Source: an uncultured Porphyromonadaceae bacterium (GTDB lineage Bacteria > Bacteroidota > Bacteroidia > Bacteroidales > Muribaculaceae). From it: DNA of 64,000 nt. Of the stretch, positions 20,592 to 45,493 are shown in pieces. Every line of letters starts with the position of its first letter. Position 1 is the first letter of the stretch. The translations under genes and the position numbers were made by a program. The notes under the pieces are model-generated. The model did no database searches and was not told where the DNA came from. It saw only the letters and a list, made by a program, of their open reading frames with translations. The DNA is taken from contig CAMWMR010000010.1 of the NCBI GenBank assembly GCA_947175425.1, forward strand, positions 1 through 64,000. Direction: 5' to 3'.

Positions 20592-22433
20592 TTACCACGA
20601 TGGCAGCTGCGAGTAGGAGTCGGGTGCCATGGCCGGAAGCGAGTCCATTACGTGCAGGGCAAGGGCGCGGGTCATGAGTATGTCGTCGTGATGTCCGTCT
20701 TTGGCGCCGTAGCTGCCGTTGCCGCGCTGCTCGTAGGTGTCCATTTCGTCGCAGGCGGCGGCGCTGCGTTCGGTGTACAGACCGTCGCGCACGGCTTCCA
20801 CAAGCGTGTCGACAAGAATTGCCTTGGTGGCGCGGTTGGTGTGGAATCCCACGCGTTGGTGCCATGTCTGAGTGGCGGCGTCGTAGTGGCGTCGGCGGTA
20901 GAGATTGGGATATACCTCGGCTATGCGCGAGAGAATGAACAGGTTGGAATCGGCGTCGCCCCCGTAGTTGGCGGTCTCGAAAGTGTTGCTTTCAATGGCC
21001 AGCAGGGCGTTGGAGTAGTAGCGCGCTATGTTCACGGCGTTGGTTGCCACGCGGTCGTGGTCGGCGTGTCCGCGCCATTGCGCCACAACTTCGGGAATGC
21101 CTCCGCGCACACGTTTCATAACGGCTATTACCGAGTAGTCGGCATCCTGCGAGCGTCCGCCAACATCCACTGCGGCCACATACTGCGCTCCGGGCTGCGG
21201 CGCTTCCCACATTTCGAGCTTGCCCTTGGGGTCGTCGGCAAAGGCGGGGCTTGCGTCCACTTCGCCCTTGTGTGCGGGAGCGGTGCACTCGGCGCGCATG
21301 TTCTCCACATGCTGCTGCGCAAAAACGTTGCGGCCGGTGTCGGTAAAGGCCTCGGTGTCGGTTGTGGGGAACTCGGCGTGCACGGCTTTGTCGTTGCCGT
21401 AGGCGCGGGTTTTGCAGCGGTACCAGTAAATCTGATCCAGGCACAGTCCCTGCTCCCACAAATTGCGCTCGTACTCGTCGAGCGAGGCGAGCAAAGCCCT
21501 GTCGTCTGGCGCTTTAAGTCGGTTAAGCTCAATTTCGTACCAGGGCACGAAAACAGCGTGCTTGTCGCCCTCGCCGCTCTTGCATCGCAGCCATTCCTGA
21601 TGAAAAAAGTTGCCCACGCCGTTGGCTGTCGATTCCATAACCACCAGCGAGCCGGGCATAATTGCCACCGAGCCCAGAATGGCACGGAGGAAATCGATTG
21701 GCGAGCGTTTGCGTGTGCGGGGCCAGAAAGCCACTTCGCTCAGGTGCGCCATGGCATAGTCGGCGCCGCGTATCGAATCCTGGTTGTGGCACGAGGCCAC
21801 GCTTACGCAGCACTCGCGGGTGTTTATCATTCGCACGTCGTCGGAACTTTGGAAAGGCTTGAGGGCGGGTTTCTTGTCCTCGGGCCAATATTCCTGCGGA
21901 TAGTTGTCGAGCACGGTGGCGAGCATGCCTCGCAGGGTGAGCGATGTCTGTTTCACCTGCGAGCATATGAGCGAGTTCCAGTGTGTGCGCAGGCAGCACT
22001 GTATCCATGCCATGTACATCTGCACAAGGGTAGATGCGCCCCACTGGCGAGCCTTGAGTATAATCATTCGCATGGGGCGTCCGGCAAGACGGTCGGCCTC
22101 GAGTGCCGCCACAACGCGCCGCTGGGGGCCGTTGAGCACAAAAGGCTGATATTGCCACCCTGTTTTGGGCTTTATTGTGGCGCAGCACACGCTCCAGTAC
22201 TCGAAGTCGTGGCGGAAACGCAGCTTTTTCCATTCTGTAGGGTTGTTGCGCACAAGCTCGAGCTGAGGGTCTTCGGCCATTGAAACGGGCACGTAGGCAT
22301 AGGGAAGCTCGGGCACGGGAGTGGCAATGCGGCAGCGACGGCCAATGCCGCCGAAGCCTGTCACGGGGTTGTATTCCGCCTCGGCGGCATTGCGCAGGTA
22401 AGTGCGGAAGCGGTTTATGAGTATGTCTTTCAT
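20592..22433 (-). CDS. Orphan phage-type terminase large subunit (TerL)
   Basis: A 613-aa protein with both TerL domains. The ATPase has a deviant Walker A LKARQWGAST (residues 126-135), Walker B AMAHLSEVAFW with E233, and a coupling-motif region near VVMESTANGVGNFF (~265-277). The C-terminal RNase H-like nuclease keeps its acidic residues: D423 in AVDVGG, E481 in AIESNTF and D583/D584 in GHHDDILMTRA. The FHTNRATKAILVDTL segment is also typical. In phages TerL cuts and pumps DNA into proheads. Here there is no portal, capsid, integrase or lysis gene nearby; the only partner is the 769-aa gene whose stop overlaps this ATG (ATGA). GC-rich codon use resembles the host, suggesting long residence or domestication. 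Confidence 0.85.
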   Translation of the reverse strand: MKDILINRFRTYLRNAAEAEYNPVTGFGGIGRRCRIATPVPELPYAYVPVSMAEDPQLELVRNNPTEWKKLRFRHDFEYWSVCCATIKPKTGWQYQPFVLNGPQRRVVAALEADRLAGRPMRMIILKARQWGASTLVQMYMAWIQCCLRTHWNSLICSQVKQTSLTLRGMLATVLDNYPQEYWPEDKKPALKPFQSSDDVRMINTRECCVSVASCHNQDSIRGADYAMAHLSEVAFWPRTRKRSPIDFLRAILGSVAIMPGSLVVMESTANGVGNFFHQEWLRCKSGEGDKHAVFVPWYEIELNRLKAPDDRALLASLDEYERNLWEQGLCLDQIYWYRCKTRAYGNDKAVHAEFPTTDTEAFTDTGRNVFAQQHVENMRAECTAPAHKGEVDASPAFADDPKGKLEMWEAPQPGAQYVAAVDVGGRSQDADYSVIAVMKRVRGGIPEVVAQWRGHADHDRVATNAVNIARYYSNALLAIESNTFETANYGGDADSNLFILSRIAEVYPNLYRRRHYDAATQTWHQRVGFHTNRATKAILVDTLVEAVRDGLYTERSAAACDEMDTYEQRGNGSYGAKDGHHDDILMTRALALHVMDSLPAMAPDSYSQLPSW

Positions 22434-24739
22434 AGATATATGCGGAATGCTTTTACAGTGCCCTTTATATTAATGTGTAGGGCGCGGAAGTGTCGTGTAA
22501 CAAAAGGAATGAACAAAGAACCGCGCAGAGCGCCCTTTATGCGGGCTTCGCGGATGAGTCGCAGAGGGGCTCCTCCCTGATGTGCGGCGGTGATGCGCAC
22601 CGTGCCGTCGAAGCTCGCCGCCTGCATGGCAAGATGCGCGCCCGGGGCGTTGGCAAGGCTGTAGCCCTTGTTGGGACGGGTAAAGCCCAATTCGGTTTCC
22701 ACGGCAATGCCGGGCAGTTCTTCGCCTGTTATGAGCAGGCGGTCGGGATTGGCGTCGGTGGCGAAGAGCTCGCCGCCGAGGGTGTGGAATTCCTTGGGCG
22801 AGCAGTCGGTGCGGAGGGTGAAACAGCCGTCATAAGCGATATAGTACACCACGGCGCCGTTGCCGTTGCGGGGTATTGCCCACAGCTCGCCGGCGGCGCT
22901 GTTGTAGCCTGTGGCGGCAAGGGGCACTGAGGCGTCGTAGAGCTGAGCCGTGCCCGTGCGGCCTATATGCCACAGGCAGCTGTCGGCGACAAAGAATATT
23001 TCGCCGCCGGGGGCGGTGCATATTGCGTCGCGGCGTTCTATGCCCTTGGAGGAGAGATTGCGGAAAGTGGCGCGGCAGGTGGAGGCGTTATAGGCCAGCG
23101 AGTATATGCCCGAGGCCGAGGCGGCCACAAAACGGCTGCGGCCCATGTCCCACGATTGCTCGGAAATATCGCGTGCCGCAAGGGCGAGCAGGGGAGTGTT
23201 GCCCAATCGCTCGGTGCGACAAATGTCCAGCGGAGCGTCCACGTGTGCGAAAGCCACGGTTTCGGGGAATTCGTCGGCGGGCTCGGGCATGTCTATAATC
23301 TGCGCCACACCCGTCAGGGCGGGTGTATAGGCTTTGAGCGAGGGATGCACGGCAATGGCAAAACGCCCCGAGGCATCGGGAGCGAGTGCGAATGTCTCCT
23401 TGTAGTTGCGCCCTTCCGAGTATAGAAGCACGGTCATTTCCACGGCGTCGGGCGCGGGATAGGCCGTTATGGGGGCAAGCATGGAGGGAAAACCACTGTC
23501 GTGTTCCTCGGTGCGCACCGTGCCGCTGCCGTCGGCAAACCGAATGGCCGTAACGGCGCGCCACGGCTTGTTCTCGGTGGCGGCGGCGAAGTTTGCGGCG
23601 GAATATCCGCGGTATCGTATAACGCTTATATTTCCCCACGCCACAGCCGGGCCGGCAGATGCAACTGCCTGAGCCGTAAAGCTGTGCGGGGCTCTCAGCA
23701 ATGCTTCTTTGCGCGTTGCTGGTGTGAGCGCCGCGGCGAGCGCTTTGTGCAGACTGCGCGTGCTTTGAACGGGGTCGGCGTCGAAAGTAAGGGCAAAAAC
23801 GCTTGTGGAAGGCCTTGAAAACGGCATGTTTATGCTTGCCACGCGTTTTTCTATGGCGTCCATTCGGCTGAATGCCGCTGCAAGTGTGGCGCAGGCCGCC
23901 GTGCCTGCCGTGCTGTCCATGGCAAGCTCGGCGCCGGGCAGTGTTATACGGGCAAAAGGCTCGTCGGCGCTGCTCATTCGTCCGGGCGTGACGCGTGCCG
24001 TCATGCTCGGGTCGTAGGGGTGGAACATGGGCGATATAAATATGTCGGCGCGGGCTATATCGCTGTCGCTCAGTGCTTCGGGAATGTCGGCCTGCAGCTG
24101 CCACGCCTGCGCGGCGGGGTTGTGGGAGTGCACTGTTATGCGGTCGGAGGAGTATACTTCGCTTGCTCCGGCAAAGTTGGCCGTTCCTAACAGCACGGGC
24201 GGGGAGGCGAAACGCATGCGCCCGGAGGCGTCGTAGAGGCGGTAGCGCACAAGGCAGGGCTGTATTGCCGCCGACATCTGCCGCGCTTTGCTGCACAGCT
24301 CGGTATAAGCTTTTTGCAGGTCGGCGGCGAGGGTGCGGGCGTCGGCGTCGTCGATAATGCCGTTCACCGCTCCTTTGGCGAGCTTGCGCTCGGGAACGGT
24401 AACGCTTATAATGCCGGCGCTGCGGGCGCTGAAAGCTATTGGAGGATAGTCGTTTACAAGCTTTTGAGGCCCGCCGTCGCTCTGTATTTTCACAGGGCCT
24501 TCGGCGCTCATTGCCAGGGCGCTGAGTGGTGTGAGCGGAAGGGCGCAGAGGTAGCCCTCGGCACTCCCGGCGAAAACGCGTCCGCTTGCCTTGCGGAAGC
24601 AGGCTACGGGGCGGTTTCCGGCTGTCTGTGGGAGGCTCGAGAGGGATTGGATGTTGATTATGGCGCCGTCGGTGCAGGGGCGCAGATTTACTGATGTTGT
24701 GGTGTTGCCCGCAGGGCGGACGCTTCGGTGGATTAACAT
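22430..24739 (-). CDS. 769-aa protein of unknown function, coupled to the terminase
   Basis: I do not recognise this family. There is no signal peptide. The N-terminus (TTTSVNLRPCTDGAIINI) is followed by a long beta-rich, alanine-rich region. The C-terminal third looks like beta-propeller blades (short repeats such as SGIYSLAYN, GEIFFVADSCLWHI, GELWAIPRNG, GELFATDANP), ending in a compact beta/basic stretch (RHFRALHINIKGTVKAFRIYL-like). It starts upstream of the terminase and overlaps it by 4 bp, so the two are almost certainly made together. By analogy with Bacteroidales phage modules it could be a virion, tail or receptor-binding component, but that is inference. Confidence 0.6.
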   Translation of the reverse strand: MLIHRSVRPAGNTTTSVNLRPCTDGAIINIQSLSSLPQTAGNRPVACFRKASGRVFAGSAEGYLCALPLTPLSALAMSAEGPVKIQSDGGPQKLVNDYPPIAFSARSAGIISVTVPERKLAKGAVNGIIDDADARTLAADLQKAYTELCSKARQMSAAIQPCLVRYRLYDASGRMRFASPPVLLGTANFAGASEVYSSDRITVHSHNPAAQAWQLQADIPEALSDSDIARADIFISPMFHPYDPSMTARVTPGRMSSADEPFARITLPGAELAMDSTAGTAACATLAAAFSRMDAIEKRVASINMPFSRPSTSVFALTFDADPVQSTRSLHKALAAALTPATRKEALLRAPHSFTAQAVASAGPAVAWGNISVIRYRGYSAANFAAATENKPWRAVTAIRFADGSGTVRTEEHDSGFPSMLAPITAYPAPDAVEMTVLLYSEGRNYKETFALAPDASGRFAIAVHPSLKAYTPALTGVAQIIDMPEPADEFPETVAFAHVDAPLDICRTERLGNTPLLALAARDISEQSWDMGRSRFVAASASGIYSLAYNASTCRATFRNLSSKGIERRDAICTAPGGEIFFVADSCLWHIGRTGTAQLYDASVPLAATGYNSAAGELWAIPRNGNGAVVYYIAYDGCFTLRTDCSPKEFHTLGGELFATDANPDRLLITGEELPGIAVETELGFTRPNKGYSLANAPGAHLAMQAASFDGTVRITAAHQGGAPLRLIREARIKGALRGSLFIPFVTRHFRALHINIKGTVKAFRIYL

Positions 24740-24771: not shown

Positions 24772-24779
24772 CAAAGATA
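24772..24779 (-). promoter_or_regulatory. -7 element of the 769-aa/terminase operon
   Basis: TATCTTTG on the minus strand, ~33 nt before the ATG at 24739. No TTTG is found at the usual -33 distance. The 24740-24954 gap is divergent and otherwise empty. Confidence 0.5.
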
Positions 24780-24905
24780 ATACGCGGCGAGGCCGGTTTT
24801 TTTACGATTTTTCCGTTTACGTAAATCCGTAAAACGCGAATTGCCGTTTTTGAAAATTGTAAATGGTTATAAATTAATATAATAGCTCGCGAATTGCGTA
24901 TTGTT

Positions 24906-31121: not shown

Positions 31122-31517
31122 TTATTCTTCGTCTTTTTCGAGGTCTACGAAAGCACGCCATGTGGTGCCGAGCACCATTTTGATGCAGTTTTCCACAATG
31201 TACTCCTTGGAAACTTCTTCATCGAGGAGGAAGGAGCATTCCATGCGTACGTTACCGTCGCGTACCACAGCTGTGGGCAGGTTGCGGCGGCAGTTGTGGC
31301 GGTTGGCAAGGAAATAGGGGTCGGTTTTGGGTTCGTATCCGGGAGCGCCGGCGGCATAGCTGAGGCGGTTGTTCTTGACAATTACAAAGATAACGACGTC
31401 GTGGCCGAAATCTTCGTCGGCAGTCTGCACAATCACCATGTCGCCGTCTTCGTCGATACGGGTGGAGATGTGGAGTTCGTCAAGATATTCGCGGATAAGG
31501 TTTTTGTCTACTGTCAT
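31122..31517 (-). CDS. YbjN-like small protein, paralogue 1
   Basis: A 131-aa cytosolic acidic protein resembling the YbjN/type III chaperone-like fold: an N-terminal helix (NLIREYLDELHI), a beta-hairpin (STRIDEDGDMVIV), and the conserved LANRHNCRRNLPTAVVRDG segment. It shares that layout with the next two minus-strand genes, so the three are tandem paralogues. YbjN proteins are tied to stress and motility regulation in enterobacteria; the role here is unknown. Last gene of the run. Confidence 0.6.
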   Translation of the reverse strand: MTVDKNLIREYLDELHISTRIDEDGDMVIVQTADEDFGHDVVIFVIVKNNRLSYAAGAPGYEPKTDPYFLANRHNCRRNLPTAVVRDGNVRMECSFLLDEEVSKEYIVENCIKMVLGTTWRAFVDLEKDEE

Positions 31518-31548
31518 AATAATGAGAGTTTAATAGGTTGATAAAAAT

Positions 31549-31932
31549 TCAGTTAAAAAATTTTACGGCGCAATTCCAAATACTCGAGATTATGGGGCGC
31601 AGGCAATCGTCGCTCAGATAATCGTCGCTCACATCCTCGGTAATGGTGAAAGCGTAGGTAAGAAAGAGTTCGCCGTCGCGGACAATGGCGGTAGGGTAGT
31701 TGCAATTGCCGTTTATATGGTTGGCAAAGCGGTAGATGTCCTCCTTGGGAGTGTAGTCCACGGGCTTGGCCAAAATCATAAGTTGCGGATCCTTGGTAAC
31801 GATGAATACGTTTATGTCGTGCCCGAAATTATCATCGGCTCGCAACACAAAACACAGGTCTCCCTCGGCGTCGAGGCGGGTAGCTATGCCGAGGCGGTCG
31901 AGACAATCACGAGTTCGTTGTTTGGACAGCAT
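31549..31932 (-). CDS. YbjN-like small protein, paralogue 2
   Basis: A 127-aa paralogue with the same layout (RLDAEGDLCFVL, FGHDINVFIV, FANHINGNCNYPTAIVRDG). The track ORF starts at 31974 inside paralogue 3; the ATG at 31932 (MLSKQRTRDCLD) comes one base after that gene's stop and gives an N-terminal helix matching the others, so I prefer it. The three reading frames are tightly packed. Confidence 0.6.
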   Translation of the reverse strand: MLSKQRTRDCLDRLGIATRLDAEGDLCFVLRADDNFGHDINVFIVTKDPQLMILAKPVDYTPKEDIYRFANHINGNCNYPTAIVRDGELFLTYAFTITEDVSDDYLSDDCLRPIISSIWNCAVKFFN

Positions 31933-31933
31933 T

Positions 31934-32353
31934 TCAGTTGTTTTGTTTGAAATATTCTTCGTCGGAACGTTCAAAATTCATAAAAGCTTCAAAAGTCAGG
32001 AAAATGCCCGGAGCAAACACATTTTCAAGCATGAAAATGGGCGACACCTCCTGTGTGAACAGCAATGCGCGGGTAAACACCACTTTGCCATCATCGGTAA
32101 TGTGGCACGAGGGTGATACCGAACGGCAATTATGCCTGTTTGCCATTTCAATCAGATTGCCTGACGGATTGTAACCCAAGGCTTCCGAGTGAAATACCAG
32201 CAGGGCGTCGTCAATAATGCTTATGAAAACGGCAACGCGATAGGGAAAGTACTTTTCGTCGAAGATAGCCACACACAACGTGCCGTCCTCCTCTTGCGAG
32301 TAATTCAACCCTTGTATTTCAAGCATTTCCTTGGCGATATCGTAGTTTATCAT
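31934..32353 (-). CDS. YbjN-like small protein, paralogue 3
   Basis: A 139-aa paralogue and the first gene of the run, with YSQEEDGTLCVAIF and MANRHNCRSVSPSCHITDDG aligning with the other two. I use the ATG at 32353 (MINYDIAKEMLEIQG); the upstream part of the track ORF lacks family resemblance. It is the most divergent copy. No canonical promoter pair is obvious upstream. Confidence 0.6.
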   Translation of the reverse strand: MINYDIAKEMLEIQGLNYSQEEDGTLCVAIFDEKYFPYRVAVFISIIDDALLVFHSEALGYNPSGNLIEMANRHNCRSVSPSCHITDDGKVVFTRALLFTQEVSPIFMLENVFAPGIFLTFEAFMNFERSDEEYFKQNN

Positions 32354-32560
32354 CTTGTTGCTGTTTAGTGTATAAAGGCATTTTGCAGTGCCCCTGCATG
32401 GTATATACGGCAAAAAACATATTTTTCCCCACAAATATACGAATAAGTTACCCGCCCCACCAAATTTATTTCCCCACCTCTACGAACTCTTTCAACCCTG
32501 AAAGCAATTCCGCCTTGTCGCGATTCCAGCTCAAATGCCTGTCATTTGAAAATTTATTTG

Positions 32561-32601: not shown

Positions 32602-33549
32602 ATGATGATTCAAATTACGACTAAAACTAAGGCAAAGCCTTTTTTGAAGTGGGCAGGAGGCAAAACCCAGTTGCTCCCTGTCATTGATTCGTTCTTGCCG
32701 GATACATTCAGGGCGCAGCAGGACGTGACCTATATAGAGCCTTTTGCCGGAGGCGGCGCAATGCTGTTTTATATGCTGCAAAAGTATCCCAATATACAAC
32801 GAGCTGTAATTAACGACATTAACCCGCATCTTATAAACTCATATCGCGTAATACGTAATGAACCGCATTTACTGATAAAAGCGTTGAAGGAATTGCAAAC
32901 ATCTTTCAAGGCCTTGGGTGACTATGATTTGCAAAAAGAACTATACCTCGATATAAGAAACCGCTTTAACGGGCAACAGGTAAACGATGTAGAGGAGGCG
33001 GCTTATATGATTTTCCTAAACCGCACATGTTTCAACGGCCTTTATAGAGAAAATTCCAAAGGAGGATTCAATGTGCCTTTCGGACGTTACTCCAATCCTA
33101 CCATTTGCGATGAGGAACTTATTCTTGCCGATAGTGAGCTGTTGCAGAAGGTGGATATATTGAACGGCGATTTTTCACAGACATCCGCTCATATCCGGGG
33201 ATATACCTTTTTTTACTTCGATCCTCCATACAGGCCTTTGGATGCAACATCAAGTTTCAATTCCTATGTAAAGGAATCGTTTGACGATAACGAGCAGATA
33301 AGACTAAAAGATTTTTTTGCGGAAATTACAGCAGCCGGCTGTCATGCCATGCTCAGCAATTCCGATTGCAAGGGACGCAATGCCGACGATGATTTTCTGG
33401 ACAACCTATACCGGGATTTTTTCATAGAAAGAGTGTATGCTAAACGTTGCATCAATGCAAATGCATCCAAACGAGGTTCTCTCACCGAGCTGTTGATCCG
33501 AAACTACGAAAATTATCAGGCGTATTCTGCAAATCTTTTTAATATTTGA
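32602..33549 (+). CDS. Dam-type adenine-N6 DNA methyltransferase (DpnM-like)
   Basis: A 315-aa D12-class (alpha group) adenine methylase. The SAM-binding motif is FLKWAGGKTQLL near residue 14, followed by YIEPFAGGGAMLF, and the catalytic motif is DPPY in YFDPPYRPLD. Dam and DpnM, its close relatives, methylate the adenine of GATC. Position directly before a DpnII-family nuclease makes it the protective methylase of that system. Codon use is AT-richer than nearby core genes. A second ATG lies one codon downstream. Confidence 0.92.
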   Translation: MMIQITTKTKAKPFLKWAGGKTQLLPVIDSFLPDTFRAQQDVTYIEPFAGGGAMLFYMLQKYPNIQRAVINDINPHLINSYRVIRNEPHLLIKALKELQTSFKALGDYDLQKELYLDIRNRFNGQQVNDVEEAAYMIFLNRTCFNGLYRENSKGGFNVPFGRYSNPTICDEELILADSELLQKVDILNGDFSQTSAHIRGYTFFYFDPPYRPLDATSSFNSYVKESFDDNEQIRLKDFFAEITAAGCHAMLSNSDCKGRNADDDFLDNLYRDFFIERVYAKRCINANASKRGSLTELLIRNYENYQAYSANLFNI

Positions 33550-33551
33550 CT

Positions 33552-34388
33552 ATGGCCTGCCGTTTTACCGATTTTATGAAACAACTCAAGGAAACTCACT
33601 TTTCTCTCAAGGACTATGTGGATTTTCCCAAGGTTGCAGCCAATGTAGAGGCTATATCCATAAAGCTCAATCAACTCAACTATTTGATTGGACAAGAAGA
33701 TATGGCTGCGGCTGTAAAGCGTTTGTGGGACGAAAATCCCAAGGTATTTTCGGTTTTGGATGTGCTTATAGCTGTACGGCCAAAGGACAGGAAGAAAGCC
33801 ATAGATATACACGGCAATATTCATTTGCTTAGCGACTACTTCGATTCTCCCGATCATGTAACAGAGTTTATAGAAGAAACAGGACTTGGTAATGTGTTTA
33901 GAAATAAGCAAATAAAGAATCTTGTAGATTATGTTTTCGGTGTTGAGGTCGGCCTTGATTCCAATGCTCGAAAGAACAGGGGTGGACACATTATGGAAGA
34001 CCTTGTGGCAAAAATATTTACACTAAACGGTATTCCGTTCCGACGAGAGGTGTATTATACCGAGTTTCCCGATATTGTGAAAGCTTTGGGTGCTGATAAC
34101 AAACGCTTTGATTTCGTTATCCGTACAAAAGAGACGATTTTCCTTATAGAAGCCAATTTCTATAGCAGTGGCGGCTCCAAGCTAAACGAAGTAGCCCGTT
34201 CATATTCGGAGCTTGCGCCAAAAATAAATGCGGTCCCCGGTTTTGAGTTTGTGTGGATAACCGACGGAATAGGTTGGGAGTCGGCCCGCAATAAACTTGA
34301 AGAAGCATTTGTACATATTCCCAAAGTGTATAATCTTACGAATATCACGGAATTTATCGATTTGCTAAAACACTTGTCGGTTCAATGA
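33552..34388 (+). CDS. DpnII-family type II restriction endonuclease
   Basis: A 278-aa nuclease of the DpnII family, expected to cut unmethylated GATC. The C-terminal half carries the PD-(D/E)xK-like core KRFDFVI...FLIEANFY followed by GGSKLNEVARSY, which is strongly conserved in DpnII relatives. The start is two bases after the methylase stop; I use the ATG at 33552 rather than the TTG at 33546. Its stop overlaps the next methylase ATG (ATGA). Confidence 0.92.
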   Translation: MACRFTDFMKQLKETHFSLKDYVDFPKVAANVEAISIKLNQLNYLIGQEDMAAAVKRLWDENPKVFSVLDVLIAVRPKDRKKAIDIHGNIHLLSDYFDSPDHVTEFIEETGLGNVFRNKQIKNLVDYVFGVEVGLDSNARKNRGGHIMEDLVAKIFTLNGIPFRREVYYTEFPDIVKALGADNKRFDFVIRTKETIFLIEANFYSSGGSKLNEVARSYSELAPKINAVPGFEFVWITDGIGWESARNKLEEAFVHIPKVYNLTNITEFIDLLKHLSVQ

Positions 34389-35269
34389 TAATACCATACT
34401 TTAAATCGAACAGCAGGGATTTTGCCATTGTCAACGGTGATTGCTTTGACGTGTTGCCGCAGTTCGATTTTAAGTTTGATATGATTTTTGCCGATCCTCC
34501 GTATTTTCTGTCTAACGGAGGTATCAGTTGTCATTCCGGGCAAGTAGTGTGCGTGGATAAAGGCGATTGGGACAAAGGCGGCTCTCCGGAGTTTATAGAA
34601 GAGTTTAACCGCAAATGGCTGCGGCTGTGCCGGGATAAACTTAAGGATAACGGAACTATCTGGATTTCAGGGACTCATCATAATATTTTTTCAATAGCGA
34701 ATGTCCTTACGGAACTCGGATATAAGATTCTTAATGTAATTACTTGGGCAAAAACAAATCCGCCGCCAAATATTTCTTGTCGTTTTTTCACCCACTCGAC
34801 CGAGTTCATTATTTGGGCGCGTAAATATGCGAAAGTGCCTCACAAGTATAATTACGAGCTGATGAAGGCTATTAACGACGGCAAGCAGATGACCGATGTT
34901 TGGCGACTGCCCGCAATTGGCCGTTGGGAGAAATCGTGTGGCAAACACCCGACGCAGAAGCCCTTAGCCTTGCTTACCCGCATTATTCTTGCGAGTACCG
35001 ATGCGCATGACTGGATTCTTGATCCTTTTGCGGGATCTTCAACTACCGGAATTGCCGCAAATTTATGTGGCAGGCGTTTTATAGGAATCGAAAAGGAAGA
35101 AGAATTTTCGTTGCTTGGCCGACTGCGCAGGGAAGAAATTGACTGTCCTGATGTGAGGCATGGTTACATTAACAGACTAAGCGACTTGAAATATGTATCG
35201 TTCATGTCCGGCATTACAGAGCCGGAGGTGGTTTACGGTAATGATTTGGAAAATATTTTCGGAGAGTGA
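34385..35269 (+). CDS. Second adenine methyltransferase (DpnA-like)
   Basis: A 294-aa beta-class methyltransferase: the catalytic DPPY (IFADPPYFLSNGG) is near the N-terminus and the SAM motif DPFAGSSTTGIAA near the C-terminus. DPPYFLSNGGIS, VDKGDWDKGG and CRFFTHSTE are hallmark stretches of DpnA, which in Streptococcus methylates GATC in single-stranded DNA and protects incoming plasmids during transformation. Together with the two upstream genes it gives a complete DpnII-type set, in the order M-R-DpnA rather than the streptococcal dpnM-dpnA-dpnB. Confidence 0.92.
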   Translation: MIIPYFKSNSRDFAIVNGDCFDVLPQFDFKFDMIFADPPYFLSNGGISCHSGQVVCVDKGDWDKGGSPEFIEEFNRKWLRLCRDKLKDNGTIWISGTHHNIFSIANVLTELGYKILNVITWAKTNPPPNISCRFFTHSTEFIIWARKYAKVPHKYNYELMKAINDGKQMTDVWRLPAIGRWEKSCGKHPTQKPLALLTRIILASTDAHDWILDPFAGSSTTGIAANLCGRRFIGIEKEEEFSLLGRLRREEIDCPDVRHGYINRLSDLKYVSFMSGITEPEVVYGNDLENIFGE

Positions 35270-36924: not shown

Positions 36925-37302
36925 ATGATAGCACAATTTGGAATTTTACTCTCATTTTTAGCCGCAGGAGAGTTTATTGTGTGGCTTACGGGGATTAATA
37001 TCCCGTCGAGCATAATAGGCATGCTTCTGCTCACGGCATCGCTCAAGGCGGGTATCGTAAAGCCTTCGTATGTAGAGCGCTTGTCGAATTTTCTTGTCCA
37101 TAATCTGGGCTTTTTCTTTGTTCCGGCGGGTGTCGGGGTGATGAACTGTTTCGGGCTTATTTCGGAGCAGTGGCTTCCCATAGTTGCGGCATCGGTTGGC
37201 AGTACGGTTATAATTATAGCCGTAAGCGGTCAGGTTCACGGATTTGTACGGCGCGCGCTTGCGCGTAAGCCGCAGATAATTAAGAGCGAGGCGGAGGCAT
37301 AG
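36925..37302 (+). CDS. CidA/LrgA family membrane protein
   Basis: A 125-aa protein with four transmembrane helices and the LrgA pattern IPSSIIGMLLL at about residues 26-36. CidA/LrgA proteins are holin-like or metabolite-export membrane proteins, working with an LrgB-type partner. The partner gene begins four bases downstream. Confidence 0.88.
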   Translation: MIAQFGILLSFLAAGEFIVWLTGINIPSSIIGMLLLTASLKAGIVKPSYVERLSNFLVHNLGFFFVPAGVGVMNCFGLISEQWLPIVAASVGSTVIIIAVSGQVHGFVRRALARKPQIIKSEAEA

Positions 37303-37306
37303 GACT

Positions 37307-38002
37307 ATGGAATTCATGACCGACAAATTTTTTCTGCTTGCCGTTACCTTTGTTTTCTACATAGGTGCTCGCAAGCTGCAACGTGCTACGGGATTGGTAC
37401 TTATAAATCCGATATTGGTGTCGATTGCGGCTATAATATGCTTTTTGCTGTTGTTCGATATCGATTATTCCACTTACCACAAAGGAGGCGAGTATATTGA
37501 TTTTTGGCTCAAACCGGCAGTAGTGGCGCTCGGGTTGCCGCTTTACAAGCAGCTTCCGACTATAAAGAAGCAGATTCTACCCTTGCTTATATCGGAACTT
37601 TGCGGCTGTGTAGCCGGCATAGTTTCGGTGGTTGCAATCGCCAAGCTGTTGGGAGCGTCGCATGAGGTTATTATGTCGCTGGCACCCAAGGCTGTAACCA
37701 CCCCTATTGCCATGGAGGTGTCGGGGGCAGTGGGCGGCATTCCCGCGCTTACAGCGGCAGTGGTTGTGTGTACGGGTATTTTCGGCGGTATGGCCGGATT
37801 TAAGATAATGCGTATGAGCCGAATAAAGAGTCCTATAGCCCAGGGGTTGTCGATAGGTACTGCGGCGCATGCCGTTGGAACATCGGCAGCCATGGAGCGA
37901 AGCGAGCGCTACGGAGCTTTTTCATCGTTGGGCCTGACGCTCAACGGCTTGCTTACAGCCATGCTTGCACCCTTTGTCCTTCACCTCATCGGCGCAATTT
38001 AA
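37307..38002 (+). CDS. LrgB/CidB family membrane protein
   Basis: A 231-aa protein with six to seven membrane helices and the LrgB signature (SLAPKAVTTPIAMEVS, then GTAAHAVGTSAAME). LrgA-LrgB pairs have been linked to murein hydrolase control and to pyruvate or glycolate transport. It directly follows the LrgA-like gene and has the usual length. Confidence 0.92.
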   Translation: MEFMTDKFFLLAVTFVFYIGARKLQRATGLVLINPILVSIAAIICFLLLFDIDYSTYHKGGEYIDFWLKPAVVALGLPLYKQLPTIKKQILPLLISELCGCVAGIVSVVAIAKLLGASHEVIMSLAPKAVTTPIAMEVSGAVGGIPALTAAVVVCTGIFGGMAGFKIMRMSRIKSPIAQGLSIGTAAHAVGTSAAMERSERYGAFSSLGLTLNGLLTAMLAPFVLHLIGAI

Positions 38003-39771: not shown

Positions 39772-39802
39772 TTGACAAACGCAATTTTATGTTGTATCTT
39801 TG
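39772..39802 (+). promoter_or_regulatory. Promoter of the two small unknown genes
   Basis: TTG (39772-39774) is followed after 20 bp by TATCTTTG (39795-39802). The leader to the ATG at 39892 is unusually long (~85 nt). Confidence 0.7.
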
Positions 39803-39891: not shown

Positions 39892-40305
39892 ATGAAACCA
39901 CAATCTATTCCCGGAGCACGCCAGCGCGATTTAATAATGGCCGCGCTCGATGTACTTTCCAAAGCTCGAGCCGAGGGTGAAATACTGACATTTCGCGAGC
40001 TGACGCGTCGAGCGTTACTTCGTCAGCCGTCAATGTACTATATTTCGGTAAGTACGGCAGTTAACCGTTTGAGCCGCATGCGTCGCGGACATCATGTATT
40101 CGAGAGCGAGCTTACGGCGCGACAGTACGAAGAAATCAACGAGCAGGTGAACAGTGTTCTTGCCAAGCGACCGACCTTGAATTTCTCGGGCGCAGTAAAC
40201 TTTGTGCTCAGCTATATGCGTCCGTCTCGTTTTTATATAAGTGAGGATACGGCAAGCCGTATAATCCGTCCGTACACAATGTTTCACGGTTTTGCAGGAG
40301 CTTGA
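39892..40305 (+). CDS. Small unknown protein with an internal repeat motif
   Basis: A 137-aa soluble basic protein I cannot name. It contains two copies of a motif: PSMYYISVSTAVNRL (residues 46-60) and PSRFYISEDTASRII (111-125), separated by a helix (TARQYEEINEQVNSVLAKRP). The pattern P-S-x-[FY]-Y-I-S-x-x-T-A is helical-capping and could be nucleic-acid or protein binding. It is followed after 3 bp by the 141-aa gene, so they form a two-gene operon with a dedicated promoter and terminator. Small Bacteroidales phage-type genes have a similar style, which is only a suggestion. Confidence 0.55.
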   Translation: MKPQSIPGARQRDLIMAALDVLSKARAEGEILTFRELTRRALLRQPSMYYISVSTAVNRLSRMRRGHHVFESELTARQYEEINEQVNSVLAKRPTLNFSGAVNFVLSYMRPSRFYISEDTASRIIRPYTMFHGFAGA

Positions 40306-40308
40306 ATT

Positions 40309-40734
40309 ATGGTTACCACACTTGCAATTTCGATTCCGAGTATACTGCAGAGTATTTATGCGTATGCAGCGGCCGATTGTCTCGACCATGAGACCGAAGC
40401 TGTACTGAGCCGCGATAACGAGGCATTGCTGAAGCGTATTGCGCGCGATATTGTTGCCGGCACAATTTTTCAGTTTATCCCCTCGGTAACGGGTACGAAC
40501 CTTACGGATTCGTCGCAGCCCGATGTAATTACCATTGACGTTGATTTGCCGGGCAATGTTCCTCCCGTGCCTTTGCGTGTGAATCTTGAGGTTGCCGTTG
40601 CCACGGGCGTTCTTGCGGCGCTTCAGCTGCCGTCGTCGGAGCTGTACCACGAAATGTACAAGGATTCAATGAAGAGTCTGCGCCGCAATCTGCTTTTCGG
40701 CAGCCGTCCCGGCTATATAAAGCAGCACGGATAA
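40309..40734 (+). CDS. Small unknown protein, possibly phage head-tail connector-like
   Basis: A 141-aa protein with an N-terminal region (ISIPSILQSIYAYAAADCLD), a helical middle (EALLKRIARDIVAGTIFQFI), a strand pair (VITIDVDLPGN...PLRVNLEVAVATGVL) and a C-terminal helix (LYHEMYKDSMKSLRRNLLFG). This layout recalls small virion connector or completion proteins in Bacteroidales phages, but I have no firm family match. No signal peptide. It ends 3 bp before a hairpin terminator. Confidence 0.5.
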   Translation: MVTTLAISIPSILQSIYAYAAADCLDHETEAVLSRDNEALLKRIARDIVAGTIFQFIPSVTGTNLTDSSQPDVITIDVDLPGNVPPVPLRVNLEVAVATGVLAALQLPSSELYHEMYKDSMKSLRRNLLFGSRPGYIKQHG

Positions 40735-43382: not shown

Positions 43383-44309
43383 TTAAATATGCGGTCCAAT
43401 TGATCCTACATAAATTTTATTGTCTTGAATTTTGAAATATATGCGAGCATGGAATTTTTCGGACTTTTGTACAGTTGACTCCCGGCAGTTATTGTCGATG
43501 TGAGTTATCTTAAAATGCGGTCCGCAACATATGTGTACTGTATCTGTACCCTTGGAGAATTCAAAAGTATACAGTTCTTTTTTTGAAGGAGTTCCTTGTG
43601 GAGAGCCGGCTCGATCCATTCCGAATTGTCCTGCAAAGTCTTCGCAAACACAGTCGACAGAATTCTTATTGGGGTGGCTGTTCCAGAATCCGATTAAACG
43701 GTCGTTCATACACGACAGGTAATAAACAATTTTTCGAGGAACTACAGATAAGTAAAACTCAATAACATCTTCACAATGAGGACTGAAAACGATATTTGGG
43801 AAATATCTGTTGGCTTTTTTCATAAAATCGGCCGGAGAGCCGGGATGATTCCCCAAAATCTGACGTCTGAGCGTTAACCAAGAATGCTTGTTATATATAA
43901 GCTCGTATTTCTCGAACTGAATATATTCAACATTAGAATTGTTGTTATCGGGTTTGTTGAGAACTATCAGCGCATGACAAGAATCCTCATCTCTTGTAAA
44001 TACTGATTTAAGCTCTATATCTTTCGGAGAAAAGGATAAAGATTGTCCCTGTTGCGAGAGAACGAGAAAAAGAAAAGCTCTGCTATCCGGATCAAGATGT
44101 TCAAATGCGAAAGTGTAAATATCTTGATTCTCAAAAATATAAGTATTGTATAAATTCTCGGAGTATACAAAAACCATATCGCCGTAATCATCGTTTATAA
44201 GTTCGGCAATATCTTTAATAAGGTTTGAGAATTTATTGACAAATACTGCTGCCGATTCTATCGAATCATACCTTATACAATCGGGATGTAAGTATAGGGA
44301 GGCCTTCAT
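43383..44309 (-). CDS. Unrecognised 308-aa protein of the ATPase operon
   Basis: No family recognised. The protein is soluble, AT-rich coded, and begins MKASLYLHPDCIRYDS with a helical segment (SAAVFVNKFSNLIKDIAELI). The middle holds a WLTLRRQILGNHPGSPADFMKKA stretch, followed by a CxxDRLIGFWNSHP region. The C-terminal ~70 residues are beta-rich and carry FHARIYFKIQDNKIYVGSIGPHI. Many short beta/helix alternations and several cysteines and histidines are seen but no classic nuclease triad. Its ATG overlaps the ATPase stop by 4 bp, so it is very likely the effector or partner of that ATPase. Confidence 0.6.
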   Translation of the reverse strand: MKASLYLHPDCIRYDSIESAAVFVNKFSNLIKDIAELINDDYGDMVFVYSENLYNTYIFENQDIYTFAFEHLDPDSRAFLFLVLSQQGQSLSFSPKDIELKSVFTRDEDSCHALIVLNKPDNNNSNVEYIQFEKYELIYNKHSWLTLRRQILGNHPGSPADFMKKANRYFPNIVFSPHCEDVIEFYLSVVPRKIVYYLSCMNDRLIGFWNSHPNKNSVDCVCEDFAGQFGMDRAGSPQGTPSKKELYTFEFSKGTDTVHICCGPHFKITHIDNNCRESTVQKSEKFHARIYFKIQDNKIYVGSIGPHI

Positions 44310-45493
44310 CTGACTTTAGCGCCAAGTCTCAAAATTTCAGCTAAATCAAAAGTCTCCTGATCAAAGAACCCTTTTGGCCAATTCGGGATTTTACCATTTG
44401 GTTCGATTTTTAACTGTTTAATGGAAAAATCATGGTCAAAGAAGTAAATTGAGGTATGCTCGTTTGTTAAATCGCAATTGTTTTTTAGCATTTCCTTTCT
44501 GAAGCCATTGATTATGTGCTCGCTGTGAGTTTCAACGAATAACTGAACGCCTCGTGCGGCTAACTTTGCCAATAATTCAGTTAAACGCGATTGAGCTTGT
44601 CCATGTAAATGCGCTTCGGGATTTTCAATAATCACTATTGAGTCCTTTTTTGCAATCAAAGCAGTAATAACAATAGCGAGTATATAACTATAACCAAAGC
44701 CGACATTATAAGCTGAGAAAGTGCGAGCGCCATTTGAATTTGCAATGTCGAACTCAATTGATAAAACCGGGCTTTTTTTATTATCGGGCAGATTAATAGC
44801 TCCGCCGTTCATAATATAATTCATCCATATAGAGAGAGCTTCCTTTAATTTTAGTTCAGCGTGTGAATTATCCAAATTCATTGAACACGGGATTGTCTCA
44901 CCATATGAAGCTATAGTGTTGATAGCATTTAATCCTTGAGGGTCGATTCTATGTATGTCGGGGACTTCCTTTTTTTCTACATACTTAACGGGGCCAACTC
45001 TATTGGCCGAGATGTAGTGAATGTTTTTAAGAAGTTTAATGAGACCTTCGGGAATGGATTTGCTGAATTGTTTGTTGCTGTTATGCTCGGATTCCGGAGT
45101 AATGTCTATAGACCCGATTGTGTCAAAATAATCAACATCATTAATAACACATGTTTCAATAGTTCCAATTTTAATGTCTTCTTCGGATAAAGTATATCCA
45201 AGTTTAATTGTATTGAATTGAGAATCATCGGTTTCTATGTCGAATCCGACATTGGCGGCGGAATCGTCTGTCAGAATTTCGTCAAAATCGCCGAGGCTTA
45301 CCAGTTCTCCGTTCAAATGTAATTTAATTAAACTTCCGGCACCAAATCCGGTTGATTGAGATAACATTAGCAAACTTTGGAGAACGCTGGATTTTCCTCG
45401 CCCGTTATATCCGGAAAATACGTTCAATTTATTAAGATTGAAGGATTTACCGTTAAGACATTTAAAGTTCGAAAATGTAATTTTTTTAATCAT
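44306..45493 (-). CDS. DUF3696-type AAA/ABC-like ATPase
   Basis: A 395-aa ABC/SMC-like ATPase of the OLD-related AAA group. Walker A GYNGRGKS is at residues 28-35; the ABC-signature region is YNVGFGYSYILAIVI; Walker B/D-loop is SIVIIENPEAHLH; the switch histidine is in ETHSEHIINGFR. The C-terminus (IPNWPKGFFDQETFDLAEIL) is the DUF3696 signature. There is no TOPRIM nuclease domain, unlike OLD proteins, so catalysis of damage would need a partner. It lies five bases after the 92-aa gene and overlaps the 308-aa gene. AT-rich composition suggests horizontal gain. Confidence 0.85.
   Translation of the reverse strand: MIKKITFSNFKCLNGKSFNLNKLNVFSGYNGRGKSSVLQSLLMLSQSTGFGAGSLIKLHLNGELVSLGDFDEILTDDSAANVGFDIETDDSQFNTIKLGYTLSEEDIKIGTIETCVINDVDYFDTIGSIDITPESEHNSNKQFSKSIPEGLIKLLKNIHYISANRVGPVKYVEKKEVPDIHRIDPQGLNAINTIASYGETIPCSMNLDNSHAELKLKEALSIWMNYIMNGGAINLPDNKKSPVLSIEFDIANSNGARTFSAYNVGFGYSYILAIVITALIAKKDSIVIIENPEAHLHGQAQSRLTELLAKLAARGVQLFVETHSEHIINGFRKEMLKNNCDLTNEHTSIYFFDHDFSIKQLKIEPNGKIPNWPKGFFDQETFDLAEILRLGAKVR

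Follow-up and report, generated by a model that had tools for sequence, protein, structure and literature searches.

Why do two small phage-style genes stand by themselves between the housekeeping genes of a Bacteroidales genome? The pair, here named A and B, lies in the window, by which we mean the whole analysed stretch of 64,000 nucleotides of contig C10. A preliminary description had seen in it a two-gene unit of small open reading frames, and both frames are indeed present, on the plus strand and only 3 nt apart. Judged by a conservation that goes far beyond chance, A and B are real genes. The locus has the following features:

39892..40305, plus strand: gene A, 137 aa, candidate small terminase (TerS) with a three-helix unit that occurs twice
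40309..40734, plus strand: gene B, 141 aa, late phage protein, possible tail-adaptor or ring component
39772..39802, plus strand: A-B promoter of the Bacteroidota type, TTGACA-N17-TATCTTTG, about 90 nt 5' of the A start codon
40738..40762, no strand assigned: hairpin after B, -16.7 kcal/mol, z -4.9

The Bacteroidota-type promoter 5' of A agrees with the dedicated promoter that had been postulated, and a TTGAC...TTGTAnnTTTGC layout is also found 5' of the A-B pair in the relatives G032, G052 and G128. Of the postulated terminator, the hairpin after B is real. Its T-tract, however, is strong on the minus strand only, so that it probably serves mainly the convergent gene, and a consensus scan listed no terminator at A-B. 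The pair had been described as far from any prophage; no prophage is visible within the 64-kb window, and the neighbours of A-B are housekeeping genes, namely asnS, a SufE-family gene and an lrgAB-like pair. The latter pair (36925-38002, about 2 kb 5' of A-B) is holin-like, and nothing ties it to the A-B system. Elsewhere in the window we noticed a low-GC patch (37%) at 43383-45493 with an AAA ATPase carrying DUF3696 and a 308-aa partner, which looks like a candidate defence pair, a tandem of three similar small genes (127-139 aa) at 31122-32434, and restriction-modification-like genes with a DNA methylase-like C-terminal motif at 33546-35269.

What kind of proteins are A and B? Scans with each protein alone, and then with its alignment member by member, gave no Pfam, NCBIfam or PHROG family for either; a single weak match to Penicillinase_R (E 6e-4) in one A relative yielded nothing usable. 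Profile comparison, in turn, identified A as a protein of the phage gp9 type (E 1.4e-15) and B as a member of the gp24/25/34/35 group of late phage proteins (E 5e-10), so that both have homologues in real phages and the label "phage-style" was well chosen. In INPHARED, three phages only, the temperate Bacteroides phages BF1-TP2, BS-TP4 and BKO1-TP3 (64-68 kb), contain the capsid of the system described below (37-40% identity), and the same three hold the closest large terminase (TerL, 36-37%). They also possess counterparts of A, B, the portal, the adaptor, the nozzle-like protein and the spanin. By profile, the portal matches the phage portal (E 1e-93), the adaptor is of the phage gp13 type (E 1e-7) and the spanin-like protein corresponds to phage gp22 (E 9e-25), while scaffold profiles gave no match to phage scaffolds. 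BS-TP4 has integrase, repressor and replication genes, which were not seen beside the cellular loci; the phages moreover carry very large genes, whereas the cellular set is without these and scattered.

For A, the gene order in phages points to a function. In all 13 phage-type loci with both A and TerL (IMG/VR contigs included), the A homologue is located 5' of TerL, on the same strand and within about 1.6 kb, and 5' of TerL is the usual place of a small terminase gene. This homology makes A a candidate small terminase; we keep to the word candidate because a fold search of the PDB gave no significant match and none to a small terminase. The A proteins are basic, with a net charge of +8 to +18. 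The AlphaFold model of A (pLDDT 93) is helical and has two successive three-helix units, and profiles of the N- and C-terminal halves align with each other (E 1.6e-9), just as expected from the duplicated motif that had been noted in the 137-aa protein. This duplicated-motif protein is best read as a small terminase and not as a connector.

For the 141-aa protein B, a virion connector or completion protein had been proposed. The late phage homology fits the virion part of this claim, and B is read here as a virion component; the connector part finds in structure little more than a hint. Among viral folds, the AlphaFold model of B (pLDDT 91.8) comes closest to a podovirus protein that is itself uncharacterised (E 1e-4, TM 0.76). 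The PDB gave nothing significant (best E 0.61), with many podovirus tail adaptors among the sub-threshold matches and no significant structural match to the T7 gp11 or P22 gp4-type tail adaptor. Altogether, the structure searches that the preliminary description suggested left both proteins without a significant PDB match and contributed, for B, the resemblance to the podovirus protein. Possibly, B is an adaptor or ring protein.

The preliminary description had also connected A-B with a terminase pair in the same window. The features of this second locus are:

20592..22433, minus strand: large terminase (TerL), 613 aa, phrog_2 2e-23, found in 181 of 198 family genomes
22430..24739, minus strand: 769-aa nozzle-like structural protein, first gene of the TerL operon, adjoining TerL in relatives
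24772..24779, minus strand: -7 box TATCTTTG of the nozzle-TerL operon
24810..24831, minus strand: palindromic operator TACGGATTTACGTAAACGGAAA, common to the nozzle-TerL operon and the capsid operon (C10:69170-69192, outside the window)

The ATPase and nuclease motifs of TerL, namely KARQWGxST, HLSE, ESTAxG, VDVGG, ESN and HDD, are invariant in 17 sequences, phages included. The 769-aa protein is not a terminase subunit, as had been assumed, but a nozzle-like structural protein. Its family profile matches phage gp33/gp26 (E 2e-12 and 2e-8), and this partner of TerL may well be the "nozzle" protein.

In relatives, where neighbourhoods of 20 kb were compared, A and B form the end of a compact cluster that consists of an acidic scaffold-like protein, the capsid, an adaptor (about 180 aa), the portal, A and B. 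The capsid of this cluster is SU10_MCP (E 1e-52); PF17236 (SU10-type major capsid) gave 180 and 167 bits in relatives at a cut-off of 24.1, and the capsid copy of the window's genome matches the same alignment as those of the relatives. The portal is assigned to P22_portal, with 59 and 71 bits for PF16510 (P22-like portal, cut-off 26.1) and matches to phrog_156 down to 5e-40. In some genera (L086, L087), A-B, terminase, capsid and portal are joined in one cluster, and genome G097 (L086) contains, in a row on one strand, the nozzle-like protein, TerL, scaffold, capsid, adaptor, portal, A and B. This arrangement, together with co-occurrence across the family, supports the view that A-B belongs with the terminase gene at 20592-22433. 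Lysis genes adjoin A-B or B in some relatives: in G052, A-B lies 3' of an amidase endolysin and a DUF6808 spanin-like gene, and in G107, B lies 5' of a holin and an amidase. As a further observation, capsids of some genera and of one phage have an extra N-terminal hydrophobic extension (L086 11781-13337, L089 6246-7673, phage L249 6398-7807), which is possibly membrane-spanning.

On contig C10 of the window's genome, the set is distributed over three places within 52 kb: the genes of the nozzle-like protein and of TerL occupy 20592-24739, those of A and B 39892-40734, and the capsid, adaptor and portal genes 69533-72810. The last group starts 5.5 kb past the window end, and its capsid gene is preceded by a short reading frame that is scaffold-like. 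The 6.9-kb contig C58 of the same genome (L085) repeats the C10 capsid region and is probably an assembly duplicate of it. Among the matches listed, B follows directly 3' of A in 126 of the 127 genomes with both (median gap 62 nt). For the other genes, and again among the matches listed, a distance of at most 10 kb was found between capsid and TerL in 8/105 genomes, between A and TerL in 7/113 and between A and capsid in 36/117, counts that are lowered by contig breaks; in most genomes the genes are far apart. The loci seen are flanked by housekeeping genes, and inspection of the 20-kb neighbourhoods of cellular loci revealed no replication or integration genes. A lysis gene, a tail tip, a receptor-binding protein and a regulator were not identified in the searched part of the window's genome. 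With the set split over three places, its phage homology and its co-occurrence, the earlier idea of a "scattered virion-gene system" proved largely right.

How widely the set is inherited was analysed in 198 Bacteroidales genomes of the same family, representing 30 genera. Single-sequence searches with A and B found single-copy, fast-diverging relatives, and profiles built from these raised the detection to 169 genomes and 28 genera for A and to 150 genomes and 29 genera for B. The capsid profile detected 182 genomes (29 genera, nearly always one copy) and the TerL profile 181 (29 genera); all four genes are mostly present once per genome, and a few complete genomes are without TerL or capsid. 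Joint absences exceed expectation for A and capsid (10 vs 2.3, p 4e-6) and for capsid and TerL (7 vs 1.4, p 7e-5), and more weakly for A and TerL (6 vs 2.5, p 0.02), so that the co-occurrence of A-B with the terminase, proposed earlier as a check, extends over the family. At the level of the order, at least 22 of 295 genomes from the own family and seven others have the capsid, among the matches listed.

The capsid tree places 97 cell-type sequences, of which four are IMG/VR contigs with the cluster only, in one clade that excludes the 14 phage capsids (support 0.978). These four belong to the IMG/VR contigs L246-L250 (capsid identity 50-54%) and look cellular; the fifth, L249, is phage-like. 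In the closest pairs, dN/dS is mostly 0.03-0.23 for the capsid and 0.10-0.21 for the portal; by this measure, both are under purifying selection. The distances of TerL, capsid and portal correlate in 12 genomes with r 0.82-0.88. Three same-genus genomes (G102, G168, G176; two of them larger than 4 Mb) gave a weak capsid match only and have a more distant TerL. They carry, perhaps, a real prophage of the related phage type that replaces the scattered set.

What could hold such dispersed operons together? If the capsid operon is compared with the nozzle-TerL operon of the same genome, a common motif emerges that is often palindromic and stands at about the same spacing from the -7 box. Matched operon pairs beat re-paired ones in 14 genomes (0/20000 permutations) and, by a stricter test, in 10 genomes (0/100000 permutations); two or three genomes showed no motif similarity between the two operons in this matched-pair comparison. 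The operator differs by species, being TACGGAwwTnCGTAA(n)ACGGAAA in the window's genome, TTAAATCGGACnnnCGTCCkATTTTGC in G003 and AAATTTGGTnGGGnGGACCAAATTT in G140. A genome-wide search of the window's genome found no copies other than those of the capsid operon, the TerL operon and contig C58, the probable duplicate (control 0). The A-B promoter of this genome (G000) does not have it. That A-B shares the operator was rejected for G000 as well as for G128 and G171; in G032, the comparison could draw on a single operon and gave the same outcome. The sequence of the window's genome consequently lends no support to a simple co-induction by one regulator. A genome-wide search of G003 gave six operator sites (control zero). 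Two belong to the virion operons and two to genes of RecA/KaiC-like ATPases; the others lie at a DUF6291 gene and at the gene of a small membrane protein. G003 has 14 such ATPase genes in scattered positions (e.g., L217 8159-8842 and L218 3145-3837), two of them with the virion-operon operator; as core components they were rejected, with matches in only 23/198 genomes and the window's genome not among them. The membrane protein, on C18 of G003, appears holin-like by eye and has no family match.

We consider it likely that A and B are parts of a domesticated podovirus-like particle, a gene transfer agent (GTA)-like system of almost the whole family. GTAs are phage-derived, are encoded in dispersed operons and do not replicate autonomously (PMC12946183). 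The present set has structural and packaging genes that derive from tailed phages, it is inherited like host genes, and it is organised in separate operons for the nozzle-like protein with TerL, for scaffold, capsid, adaptor and portal, and for A-B, joined in some relatives by endolysin, spanin and holin. We would go further, with a confidence only somewhat above even, and suggest that a functional GTA, the first in Bacteroidota, is ancestral to this dominant gut Bacteroidales family, with dispersed operons tied together by a dedicated operator that changes from species to species. Because nearly every member of the family has kept the genes of a DNA-packing particle, it is probable that these bacteria exchange their own DNA by means of a tamed virus.

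The system might work as follows. A dedicated regulator would act at the palindromic operator and switch on the capsid and TerL operons, with A-B expressed from its own promoter. Scaffold and capsid would assemble on the portal, and A, as the small terminase, would hand chromosomal DNA of the host over to TerL for the filling of the head. The neck would then be closed, and a short tail formed, by the adaptor together with the nozzle-like protein and, perhaps, B, and lysis genes would free the particles, which carry fragments of the producer genome to relatives. We infer from the gene content that such particles form, hold random host DNA and deliver it.

Four other explanations have to be weighed. 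The domesticated particle could have a different use, for example as a PBSX-like, DNA-filled killer of relatives that delivers no DNA, which we regard as rather improbable and yet as the best of the four. Conservation and selection would look the same for such a killer, no receptor-binding or delivery gene was identified, and PBSX itself packs random DNA without transferring it (PMC7667829). What speaks for a GTA-like system instead is that the intact TerL and the candidate TerS imply selection for DNA packaging and that the dispersed organisation is unlike PBSX. Much less probable is a satellite or packaging system that moves one particular mobile element. The fast-evolving TerS candidates could provide element specificity, and in G003 the operator also has RecA/KaiC-like ATPase and DUF6291 genes under its control; however, neither integrase nor replication genes were seen at the loci inspected, the set is dispersed and has been inherited together, and the window's genome gave no match to the ATPase family of G003. 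We give marginally less weight still to functionless prophage remnants that decay or are repeatedly acquired: phage descent and the more phage-like capsids (weak matches) of three same-genus genomes would fit, but near-universal single copies, low dN/dS, one clade, correlated distances, intact motifs and a shared operator do not. It is hardly credible that A and B are small genes of the host without any relation to the phage genes, next to which they would lie by chance in some relatives. A-B does stand alone under its own promoter in the window's genome, but both proteins have homologues in real phages, the pair is part of the cluster in many genera, and A tends to be absent together with the capsid.

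If the proposed GTA-like system exists, a machinery for DNA transfer is inherited in a large family of bacteria from the mammalian gut. It is easy to miss, its genes being scattered, and models of gene flow between gut bacteria would change. The system could also account, in a concrete and testable way, for a part of the host-DNA packaging that is so far unexplained in virus-like particles of the mouse gut. In these particles, 46 contigs with generalised-transduction or GTA patterns were reported, about one quarter of the patterns is unexplained, and most phylum-classified contigs belong to Bacteroidetes (PMC7667829). In the open literature that we searched, no GTA is described in Bacteroidota.

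Among the known systems, PBSX of Bacillus subtilis is similar in that a defective phage fills its particles with random DNA of the host (PMC7667829); PBSX is a single prophage-like killer locus, in contrast to the dispersed genes and the other virion type found here. Closer are RcGTA and FpGTA, which likewise combine phage-derived packaging and virion genes with family-wide retention (PMC12946183, PMC7947584); they lack autonomous replication genes, and none were seen at the loci inspected here. In RcGTA, the TerS gene adjoins terL (PMC7947584). FpGTA is, like the system proposed here, podovirus-like and from a gut bacterium. The present system, known from its genes alone, differs from both in its phylum and ancestor, with an SU10-type capsid and a P22-like portal. 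It differs further in that its core head and packaging genes lie, in most genomes, in separate operons, and in its species-specific palindromic operator.
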